Shown here piece by piece: positions 46,098 to 60,031 of a stretch of DNA of 64,000 nucleotides. Where the stretch lies: assembly GCF_001975225.1 (NCBI RefSeq), contig NZ_CP019445.1:3162001-3226000 (forward strand), in the 5' to 3' direction. Position 1 is the stretch's first letter, and each line of letters begins with the position of its first letter. Made by a program: the position numbers and the translations under genes. The notes below the pieces were generated by a model, which searched no databases, had not been told where the DNA came from, and was given only the letters and a program-made list of their open reading frames with translations. Source of the DNA: Kosakonia cowanii JCM 10956 = DSM 18146. GTDB lineage: Bacteria; Pseudomonadota; Gammaproteobacteria; Enterobacterales; Enterobacteriaceae.

Positions 46098-46301
46098 ATG
46101 AAAACAATCACAACAACCGCCGCCGCGCTGGTTATTTCTGCGCTCTCTTTCAGCGCATTCGCGGCACAGCCTGCACAATCTACTAATCACATCACCAGCA
46201 TCGAAGCGGGTTCAAACATGATTCCCGGCACGCATGCCGTAAAAGGTACTAATGACGCTGCTTTTAATGCGCATACGCTGGTAGCCGGTGGATGGGAATA
46301 A
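46098..46301 (+). CDS. Small secreted protein of unknown function, 67 aa
   Basis: A clear Sec signal peptide (MKTITTTAAALVISALSFSAFA) leaves a mature peptide of about 45 residues that is polar, Cys-free and Gly/Ala/Asn-rich, ending in HTLVAGGWE. I recognise no family. TCTACAAT at 46029-46036 could be an RpoS-type -10 element. It is isolated between ydiY and the terminator at 46330, and convergent with the flagellin gene. The signal peptide and own terminator argue that it is a real gene. Confidence 0.7.
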   Translation: MKTITTTAAALVISALSFSAFAAQPAQSTNHITSIEAGSNMIPGTHAVKGTNDAAFNAHTLVAGGWE

Positions 46302-46464: not shown

Positions 46465-47910
46465 TTAGCTACGCAGGAGTGAGAGAATATTCTCCGCCGC
46501 CTGGTTCGCCACTTTTAGCACGGCGTCCTGACCCTGCTGTAACAGCTGCGCTTTAGCCATCTTGCTCGCTTCCAGCGCGTAATCTGCATCTTCTATCCGG
46601 CTCTTTGCCGCCTGCGTGGCGACACTCTGCTGCGCCAGCACCGATTTGTTTGATTCAAAACGATTAATAAAAGCGCCATATTGTGCGCGGTAACCGCTCA
46701 CTTTCTCCAGCGCCTGGTCGAGTTTGCCCATCGCCTTACCAGCAGTGGTTTCTGACAGCAGATCCGTGCCGGTTAAGCCAAGGGATTTAACATCCGCAGG
46801 CGTGGTCGGAATGGTCGTTGACTTGATCTCATCCCCGACAGTGGCGCTGGTCACCACTTCCCAGGGCCTGCTCTGCTTAGGCGGCTCTTTCGGCGTAATC
46901 GTCGGTTTTGGCAGCTCGCCCCAGGTCAGGTTGCTGGTAAAGGAGCCGCTCCCCACGACCATAACAACAAGATCTTCAGTGACATTATCAATCGTTAATC
47001 GCTCAAGGCGGTTCGCACCATTGCTGCCGTCATTGTAGGCCGCACCGGACTCATACCGATCGCCATCACCACTGTATTTGATGGTCATGCCATTGTAGGG
47101 GAGTGTCGAGCTGCCATTTAATGCCCAGGAAGAGCCTCCTTCAATCAGCAGCGAGTCATCGTAAGCGGCACCACTCTTGAAGCCGTTCGATGCAGTCAAT
47201 ACGCGGCTGGTTGCTTTTGCGGAATCGGTGATGCCGCGGCTTTTCCAGGTGTAATCCGGGTCGCTGCCGTTAATCGGCGTGCCCGCCAGATGTTTACCGT
47301 CACGCGTAAAGAGCTGGATATCGTCATCTAACCCCAGCGAGTCGATGGTCAACGTAATATTTTCCGCCCCCGCCGGGATATAGGCCAGCGAGACGATCCC
47401 AGAACTGAAGGAGTAGTCCGTCCCGCTCACCGGAAATTTAGTACTCAGCGGCGGAACATCGCCGATAAGCGCTGGCGGAAGTTCCGGTGCGTCCGTTGCC
47501 AGCGGATAGGAGCCGAAAATCTCGGTGCCTTCGGAAATCGACTGAATGGTATCCAGAATGCTTTGATACTCATTCTGTATGCTGCGTCTGTCGCTTTCGG
47601 AAAGCGTGCTATTGCCAGCCTGGATAGCCAGGCTTTTAGCGCGAATCAGCCGTTCGCTAATGGTATTCAGGCCACCATCGGCGGTCTGTGCCATGCTGAT
47701 GGCATCATCAAGCCCGCGGGAAACCACGGTGTCTGCGTTGCTGTTTGAGCGCATACGATTGGCGATGGCCTGTCCTGCCGCATCGTCTTTTGCGCCATTG
47801 ATTCGAAAGCCTGACGATAAACGCTCAATTGACTCCTGTAGAGTCGATGAGGTCGTTTTTCGAACCGTCAGGTTCAATCCCGTCATCTCGTTGTAATTGA
47901 TCGCTTGCAT
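46465..47910 (-). CDS. Orphan flagellin with a large beta-rich central insert, 481 aa
   Basis: Residues 1-135 form the flagellin D0/D1 N-terminus (IERLSSGFRINGAKDDAAGQAIANRM), and residues 385-481 the D1/D0 C-terminus (SRIEDADYALEASKMAKAQLLQQGQDAVL...). Between them, residues 152-332 form a Gly/Asp-rich beta domain (ENITLTIDSLGLDDDIQLF, YNGMTIKYSGDGDRYESG, DLVVMVVGSGSFTSNLTWG) resembling a prepeptidase C-terminal (PPC)-type sandwich, followed by a Pro/Lys linker. No HExxH protease motif is present. The start at 47910 makes MQAINYN line up with other flagellins; a TTG seven codons upstream is also open. No other flagellar gene is nearby. Confidence 0.88.
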   Translation of the reverse strand: MQAINYNEMTGLNLTVRKTTSSTLQESIERLSSGFRINGAKDDAAGQAIANRMRSNSNADTVVSRGLDDAISMAQTADGGLNTISERLIRAKSLAIQAGNSTLSESDRRSIQNEYQSILDTIQSISEGTEIFGSYPLATDAPELPPALIGDVPPLSTKFPVSGTDYSFSSGIVSLAYIPAGAENITLTIDSLGLDDDIQLFTRDGKHLAGTPINGSDPDYTWKSRGITDSAKATSRVLTASNGFKSGAAYDDSLLIEGGSSWALNGSSTLPYNGMTIKYSGDGDRYESGAAYNDGSNGANRLERLTIDNVTEDLVVMVVGSGSFTSNLTWGELPKPTITPKEPPKQSRPWEVVTSATVGDEIKSTTIPTTPADVKSLGLTGTDLLSETTAGKAMGKLDQALEKVSGYRAQYGAFINRFESNKSVLAQQSVATQAAKSRIEDADYALEASKMAKAQLLQQGQDAVLKVANQAAENILSLLRS

Positions 47911-47947
47911 TACCGTCGCTATATCATTCAAACCACGAATGCTCTAT

Positions 47948-47975
47948 TTATCGGCAACAGTAGTGAGTTTCTTTA
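47948..47975 (-). promoter_or_regulatory. Sigma-28 (FliA) promoter of the flagellin gene
   Basis: Minus strand: TAAA, 16 bp, GCCGATAA. The -10 is a perfect match to the flagellar sigma consensus; the spacing is one longer than ideal. Transcription would start near 47941, about 30 nt before the start codon. Confidence 0.82.
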
Positions 47976-59317: not shown

Positions 59318-60031
59318 ATGATAGTTTCTCTCGATTACAGCTATCGCTCTGAGCTTTTATTACTGCCGGCAAGAGACGGTAACGGAGTGCTTCAGGGCGT
59401 CGAAATTATCGTTAACTTTGTTGGAAAGGACAGCACCGTCCGCGCCCCGACAGAGCTGGTCTTGCCACGCCTGACGACCGCTGAAAAAGTGACGCTGTTT
59501 ACTGAGCAACTTGACCTCATTGAAGCCTGCCAGCTTTTTTTAATTCAGCATCACCTTACCGCCTGGATTAATATTTCGCCGGAAATAAGTGAGCTATTAC
59601 TGACAGATGACACGCTGGCGGCACAGGTGAGAAAATTCCCGTGCCTCGAATTGGCTATCAATGAGAATTATCCAGATCTTAATAGCGGAAAAGAGAACAA
59701 AATTCTGTCTCTACTGGCGAAACAATATCCGCTGGTGCTGTGGAATTTCGGCGTGGGTACTGCGTCGACCAAAGCGGTATTTGATGGGCTGTTTAAACGG
59801 GTCATGCTGGATAAAAACTTTATTCACCAACGTTTATCTACGCTTGCCTTCGAACCCTTTATGCGCGCCATCATTTCGCAGGTTGAACCTTATTGCGATG
59901 CGGTGATGATTGCCGGCATTGATGATGAGCCATCGTATAAGCGCGCAAGGGCGTTTCAGTTCAGCGCCATGCAAGGCGCACTCTGGCCTGCGGTTAGCCC
60001 TGCGCAGCTGACGTCACTGGTCCATCCATAG
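59318..60031 (+). CDS. ydiV: YdiV, degenerate EAL-domain anti-FlhDC factor, 237 aa
   Basis: An EAL-fold protein that lacks the EAL signature and the metal residues of active c-di-GMP phosphodiesterases. Matching E. coli and Salmonella YdiV are the segments ELAINENYPDLNSGKENK and KAVFDGLFKRVMLDKNFIHQ, plus the C-terminal ALWPAV. YdiV binds FlhD and blocks FlhDC, lowering flagellar gene expression under poor nutrition. The protein is moderately diverged from E. coli. It lies between nlpC and selO. Confidence 0.85.
   Translation: MIVSLDYSYRSELLLLPARDGNGVLQGVEIIVNFVGKDSTVRAPTELVLPRLTTAEKVTLFTEQLDLIEACQLFLIQHHLTAWINISPEISELLLTDDTLAAQVRKFPCLELAINENYPDLNSGKENKILSLLAKQYPLVLWNFGVGTASTKAVFDGLFKRVMLDKNFIHQRLSTLAFEPFMRAIISQVEPYCDAVMIAGIDDEPSYKRARAFQFSAMQGALWPAVSPAQLTSLVHP

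Follow-up and report, generated by a model that had tools for sequence, protein, structure and literature searches.

A conserved, non-standard domain on the exposed part of an accessory flagellin in Kosakonia cowanii and its relatives

The 64,000-nucleotide stretch of Kosakonia cowanii JCM 10956 (= DSM 18146) analyzed here, hereafter the window (positions 3,162,001 to 3,226,000 of contig NZ_CP019445.1), carries a flagellin gene of which the surface-exposed middle part, termed the insert below, matched no flagellin of PDB when its sequence was searched alone. This exposed domain is under strong purifying selection, about as strict as that on the filament core. The data support well that this is an accessory flagellin and that its exposed domain is conserved and non-standard; as for its function, we infer a displayed binding module for the reasons given below.

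The protein is almost certainly a flagellin. The preliminary description of this DNA regarded the flagellin ends as intact, and both were indeed found above their Pfam cut-offs: Flagellin_N (PF00669) matched residues 11-144 with an E-value of 1.4e-26 (93.6 bits; cut-off of 26.6), and Flagellin_C (PF00700) matched residues 401-486 with an E-value of 1e-16 (61.5 bits; cut-off of 23). PF00700 is present here and absent, at E-values up to 0.01, from an FlgL-like gene in the same genome. The open reading frame (ORF) of 488 codons starts with TTG, and an internal ATG at residue 8 (codon 47910-47908) gives a protein of 481 residues, the start and length found in many annotated relatives. We prefer ATG 47910 to TTG 47931 as the start. 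Residues are numbered from TTG throughout this study, while those of the preliminary description were counted from the internal ATG.

The conservation of the insert was evaluated in two ways. First, the members of the family and the best-scoring other flagellin were compared among the 20 genomes possessing both kinds (190 pairs). Of the 35 carrier genomes (see below for the details), 28 entered the comparison, G028, G122, and five without a fetched locus being left out; G306 and G350 (no single long ORF), G349 (an antisense ORF), and the copies of G096 and G225 (genuine, but removed by a motif filter) were left out further. Within the family, the identity averaged 0.66 over residues 31-147, 0.64 over the insert (residues 166-338), and 0.61 over residues 401-488. 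The corresponding values for the other flagellins of the same genomes were 0.73 for the N-terminal core, 0.15 for the middle part, and 0.72 for the C-terminal core, the middle value being lowered by the mixture of paralogues from different flagellar systems in this group. Second, the ratio of non-synonymous to synonymous substitution rates (dN/dS) was calculated for 13 genomes sharing the ydiY locus (78 pairs); the synonymous sites were near saturation and the ratios are thus rough. The median dN/dS of the insert was 0.080 (49 of the 78 pairs usable), close to 0.083 and 0.075 for the two core parts (38 pairs each). Higher medians were obtained for the two linkers (0.206 from 67 pairs and 0.265 from 53), residues 363-400 (0.229 from 55), and residues 9-38 (0.208 from 32). 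In a hand-chosen alignment of 51 sequences, 50 of which were taken from 120 listed relatives, D202-D204, H214, D226, W229, N249, D289-R292, E310, E319, and D320 in the insert were invariant, and H214, D203, D204, N249, E310, and E319 were invariant in a set of 14 sequences including more divergent ones as well. The very beginning of the protein showed the opposite tendency, as the identity over residues 8-30 was 0.38 in the family versus 0.70 for the matching end of the other flagellins. We read this as a relaxed or altered packing in the inner tube of the filament.

The preliminary description predicted a non-flagellin, PPC-like beta domain in the surface part, and both structure prediction and fold search were in line with it. 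AlphaFold2 modeled residues 146-345 confidently as a jelly roll (predicted local distance difference test score of 92.9; predicted template modeling score of 0.90). No flagellin appeared among the best 50 matches listed by either aligner, albeit such absence is no proof of a distinct fold. The best fold matches for the model were to accessory domains and to the non-catalytic part of Csp proteins. The PPC and collagen-binding domains and the ADAMTS13 spacer (PF04151, 3jqw, 5sv5, and 3ghn) are counted among the closest known systems. PPC of Pfam itself matched weakly: PF04151 scored 11.0 bits with the whole protein (E-value of 0.84) and 11.9 bits with the insert, short of the curated cut-off of 25.9. 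A fold search against BFVD returned nothing at an E-value below 0.001.

The insert occupies the same position as the D2/D3 domains of ordinary FliC, namely between the two halves of D1. On the other hand, D2/D3 are hypervariable, whereas the insert is conserved and no flagellin in PDB matched it alone or as a profile. With the insert alone, phmmer against all PDB sequences gave two matches at E-values up to 10, neither of which was a flagellin. Profile A3, comprising 14 insert sequences, gave 21 matches in the same range, again with no flagellin among them; the best was an OspA chain (E-value of 6.2e-4 over 76 profile positions). Thus, the possibility of the insert being an ordinary D2/D3 by sequence was rejected. 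When the whole protein was used as the query, the alignments with four flagellin chains extended beyond the core as far as residue 238 (9ofn), 223 (9n8a and 9n8b), and 221 (9ygu) of the insert, and the extension of 9ofn was gapped and of low identity.

The genome contains other flagellins and the window protein is therefore an accessory flagellin. Flagellin_N had nine matches in the genome, the window gene included, and the idea of the latter being the only flagellin was discarded. A flagellin of 417 residues adjoins the genes resembling fliD and che/mot by eye, and four tandem flagellins of 301 residues (matches 4108833-4112548; genes G000:C1:4108341-4112557, L014 4342-8558) adjoin a fliD-like gene. 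A second solitary flagellin near 3798573 (L015 8085-8993) lies beside genes resembling those for sugar utilisation and, with 302 residues, is too short for such an insert. The FlgL-like gene lies at 3020679 and a further match at 1034453. Both Pfam ends were found in the 417-residue, one of the 301-residue, and the 302-residue flagellins, and only the first in the FlgL-like gene. FHIPEP (FlhA type) had three matches with 903, 893, and 660 bits, the third of which is possibly part of a type III secretion system. Each of the 35 carrier genomes had three or more Flagellin_N matches, with the window gene type and FlgL counted in. The nearest other Flagellin_N match in the genome is the FlgL-like gene about 187 kb away. 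The preliminary description stated that no flagellar gene lies within 40 kb on either side; the window extends far enough for this on the left, where it covers 46.5 kb, but not on the right, where it covers only 16.1 kb. No flagellar structural or assembly gene was found in a family scan of 19 of the 112 window ORFs of at least 120 residues plus one short ORF.

A sigma-28-type promoter with TAAA, perfect as described earlier, is present 37 nucleotides ahead of the ATG (Table 1). Its pattern occurs once in the window, where 0.02 matches are expected from 100 shuffles, and 13 times as an exact match (spacer of 15 or 16) in the genome, in which the reversed pattern gave none. We scored 35 upstream regions, namely those of four loci, thirty flagellin loci (L017-L046), and the remnant L047. 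A score of at least 11 out of 12 was found in 31 of them and the full score in 11, the misses being L040, L043, L046, and L047; after mononucleotide shuffling of the whole set, 11 was reached in 7 of 10,500 cases. After excluding the copy of the window, two exact duplicates, and one remnant, 28 of the 31 regions scored at least 11, as did 25 of 28 after the removal of regions 90% or more alike; away from ydiY, the count was 11 of 14. The upstream regions of relatives are still not independent after duplicates are removed. As 28 of 31 regions reached this score against 7 in 10,500 shuffles, the promoter is more than a product of chance, and the gene is very probably under the control of FliA. 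The motif was also perfect upstream of the copy on plasmid pPag1, and was missing upstream of the two Pseudoalteromonas copies examined. In the same genome, TAAA-N15-GTCGATAA precedes each of the four tandem flagellins (11/12), while the 302-residue flagellin scored 10/12 and the 417-residue flagellin 8 within 200 nucleotides. These scores suggest that the window gene would more likely be expressed with the tandem-flagellin system, although the genome has three FliA/WhiG-type sigma factors above the cut-off.

Using the insert as the query, we detected relatives in 35 of the 392 sampled genomes of Enterobacteriaceae (in the sense of GTDB), spanning 17 of 154 genera. Five of the six genomes of the same genus were positive, the one analyzed here included, and G072 was negative. 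The frames were of 483-542 residues, apart from the broken copies of G028, G122, G306, and G350. Broken copies were seen at L012/L027, L036, L041, L046, and L063, together with a 49-residue remnant in G756, and the gene is dispensable in such places. A flagellin domain was present in all matches listed (120 of 189 proteins, 268-854 residues, found with the insert region). The insert alone retrieved 17 short proteins, of which 14 possessed a flagellin domain and three (119-249 residues) did not. In the core-only phylogeny, from which the insert was removed, 34 members of the family and 30 other flagellins were separated by a single branch with a support of 100/100. This tree disfavors repeated grafting of the insert onto local FliC and may be compatible with a single origin of the chassis plus the insert. 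One copy, P0016, is labeled Salmonella enterica and is 75% identical to the window protein; the genome is perhaps mislabeled.

Fourteen of the thirty loci with short flanks (L017-L046) lay beside ydiY and 16 elsewhere. Among the fifteen loci with wide flanks (L048-L062), one lay at ydiY/thrS and 12 others had no flagellar-looking neighbor, save a chemoreceptor-like ORF in L054; the neighbors, up to five per side, were judged by eye and mostly without a family scan, and L055 and L057 were left out. At L056, L058, L059, and L061, similar genes for a LuxR-type regulator come after the relative, and both of the two scanned gave a GerE match. Relatives were found in 60 of 72,556 plasmid records, of which 55 were of Pantoea, three of Duffyella, and two of Pseudoalteromonas (31-33% identity). 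No other flagellar structural gene was annotated within 6-12 kb in three plasmid regions (pPag1 and two Pseudoalteromonas megaplasmids), for which the gene table is incomplete. The distant copy on a megaplasmid of Pseudoalteromonas shioyasakiensis (L093 10314-12945) adjoins a chemotaxis receptor gene. No relative was matched in phages, and a blastn search of 20,395 E. coli records with the DNA of the gene was negative. The 369 sampled genomes of Gammaproteobacteria gave, beyond the genome analyzed here, only the remnant in G756, and a search of 360 genomes of the class with A3 retrieved this genome alone. Thus, the domain is rare outside Enterobacteriaceae in these samples.

The phylum was scanned over 398 genomes with profile A2 (core plus insert) and then with the insert-only profile A3. 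With A2, matches over the full length were obtained in G832 (42% identity with the window protein) and in G845, which belongs to another class (34%). In G832 the copy is flanked by a flagellin gene on one side and two fliD genes on the other, so the term orphan applies to the window gene and not to the family as a whole. An insert-only match in G900 lies in a 2778-residue ORF (L096 6099-14435) with 18 Big_13 stretches, which shares 44% identity with the insert over its residues 96-284 (E-value of 7e-36). No flagellin domain was shown in this protein by the family scan, and its Ig-like repeats suggest a surface adhesin. Eight of the 398 genomes were matched by A3, five of which were there by construction (G832, G845, G900, G151, and the genome of the window, itself part of A3). 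The eighth was the remnant of G756, and two were new. One is a 915-residue frame of G856, cut at the 5' end and closing in Flagellin_C (hhalign E-value of 6.5e-29). The other is partial (79 columns) and lies in FlgK of G965 (830 residues, L106 262-2754; FlgK_D1 with an E-value of 1.3e-58), where the similarity to the beginning of the domain covers residues 414-492 (hhalign probability of 97.3; E-value of 2.6e-11). This FlgK match is the weakest of the set and may reflect a shared fold alone.

We propose that FliA transcribes this accessory flagellin gene from the promoter described above, and that the product would be exported through a flagellum and incorporated in minor amounts among the ordinary flagellins. 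The middle part of the protein, held by Pro-rich linkers, would form a compact jelly roll on the outside of the filament and act as a ligand-binding (adhesion) module. Export and assembly are probable, judging from the promoter and the conserved ends. The minority position is suggested by the presence of other flagellins and the relaxed first residues. Folds of this class are used for substrate or matrix binding; given display, ligand binding is likely, considering the predicted fold and the company that the domain keeps. The displayed binding module is favored because the domain is conserved, compact, borne on Pro-rich stalks, of this fold class, and found also in an Ig-repeat protein. Taken as a whole, we give this explanation an even chance of being correct.

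The jelly roll may instead be a structural outer domain that packs on its neighbors as a dimer or sheath and tunes the stiffness or waveform of the filament with no foreign ligand. Dimers or tetramers of outer domains, with effects on motility, are known from some filaments (PMC8931119), and core-like conservation is what self-contacts would give; the same domain occurs, however, in the Ig-repeat protein, where filament contacts do not exist, and the carriers have other flagellins. We regard this structural role as unlikely. Somewhat less probable still is a flagellin outside the bulk filament, either secreted or restricted to the hook junction or the tip. The variable residues 8-30, conserved at the same end of other flagellins, and the partial relative of the domain in FlgK, a junction protein, are in line with it, as is FlaC of C. 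jejuni, which has been called a non-structural, secreted flagellin (PMC5466977), but D1 and the C-terminal core are under strong constraint. That the six residues invariant in both the 51 and the 14 sequences constitute a catalytic or metal site is very unlikely: enzymatic flagellins do exist (PMC5595980), yet there was no convincing match to an enzyme family, the protein has no HExxH (the absence of a protease motif noted earlier was correct), and the fold matches point to non-catalytic domains. Finally, a spare antigen for phase or antigenic variation, the role proposed for the fliC copies on Group II LPP-1 plasmids of Pantoea (PMC3505739), should vary, and was rejected as scarcely credible for a constrained exposed domain.

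Domain insertions in the middle of flagellins are known in 61 kinds among 26,587 flagellins, with metallopeptidases as the leading enzyme (PMC5595980), and flagellin middles have been described as an extreme of diversity (PMC7018530). Filaments sheathed by outer domains are known as well (PMC8931119). The likeness to flagellins with inserted enzymes drawn in the preliminary description holds in design: flagellinolysin likewise has the ends of a flagellin, carries a foreign domain in place of the hypervariable middle part, and is taxonomically scattered (PMC5595980). It fails in content, since the insert of flagellinolysin is a metallopeptidase with HExxH and that of the window protein a jelly roll without it. 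PPC is missing from the top-10 domain table of that study, which covers part of the 61 kinds. Solitary fliC genes on LPP-1 plasmids have been noticed and ascribed to phase variation, and share with the window gene a position away from the fli locus; the passages on these genes make no mention of the domain (PMC3505739). The relatives on the 55 Pantoea plasmid records include that on pPag1 of P. vagans C9-1 (168 kb). We assume that pPag1 is not the LPP-1 plasmid of this strain. The minor flagellins of Helicobacter, Campylobacter, and Shewanella (reviewed in PMC8306008) resemble the window protein in being second flagellins of a genome, and they share one filament with the first. No foreign domain is described in the part of that review available, and the window gene, the product of which is predicted to assemble, differs in lying away from flagellar genes. 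The flagellar systems of these genera are treated in 'Flagella by numbers' (PMC7526173) and the K. radicincitans genome paper (PMC6125372), in the available portions of which the word 'orphan' does not occur. We found no account of the window gene or its domain in the open-licence literature searched.

Table 1. Features of the accessory flagellin gene in window coordinates
Feature	Position	Strand	Basis
Sigma-28 (FliA)-type promoter, TAAA-N16-GCCGATAA	47948..47975	-	0 mismatches; 0.02 expected
Accessory flagellin gene	46465..47931	-	ORF, starts of annotated relatives, Pfam
D0/D1 N-terminal core, residues 8-147	47491..47910	-	PF00669, structure match to flagellins, conservation; first ~23 residues unusually variable
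Linker, residues 148-165	47437..47490	-	Median dN/dS 0.206
Exposed jelly-roll (PPC-like) domain (predicted), residues 166-338	46918..47436	-	AlphaFold2, fold matches, alignment, median dN/dS 0.080
Pro/Lys-rich linker, residues 339-362	46846..46917	-	Sequence; median dN/dS 0.265
Return to core, residues 363-400	46732..46845	-	Model
D1/D0 C-terminal core, residues 401-488	46468..46731	-	PF00700 401-486

Residues ~95-104 (LIRAKSLAIQ) probably align with the TLR5 contact stretch of the Salmonella flagellin and differ at its E93 position; recognition by host receptors may differ accordingly. A 66-residue ORF at 46101-46301 (+), convergent with the flagellin gene, has a start resembling a signal peptide by eye. 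Counting its own locus, 13 of the 14 loci at ydiY gave a match to it, with 44-89% identity outside the window. An EAL-like protein is encoded at 59318-60031 (+), some 11 kb from the flagellin gene, with 30.5 bits against the Pfam cut-off of 31.3. From the gene order, we take it to be YdiV/RflP, an anti-FlhDC regulator of flagellar genes.

The outer domains of flagellins are a textbook case of hypervariability, the purpose of which is mostly open, and the one described here is constrained like the core. The constraint suggests that some of the subunits bear a tool for a specific task and not a disguise that can be changed. We tentatively consider the jelly roll a mobile module displayed on the flagellar surface, partly spread by plasmids and shared by accessory flagellins, a giant flagellin, FlgK, and a giant Ig-repeat protein; in motile bacteria, many of them isolated from plants, a portion of the propeller might thereby serve as a non-antigenic organ dedicated to binding. 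Whether filaments carry dedicated binding tools is now directly testable with the purified domain of ~180 residues and the deletion of a single gene. The present case also cautions that solitary flagellin genes are not all antigenic spares.
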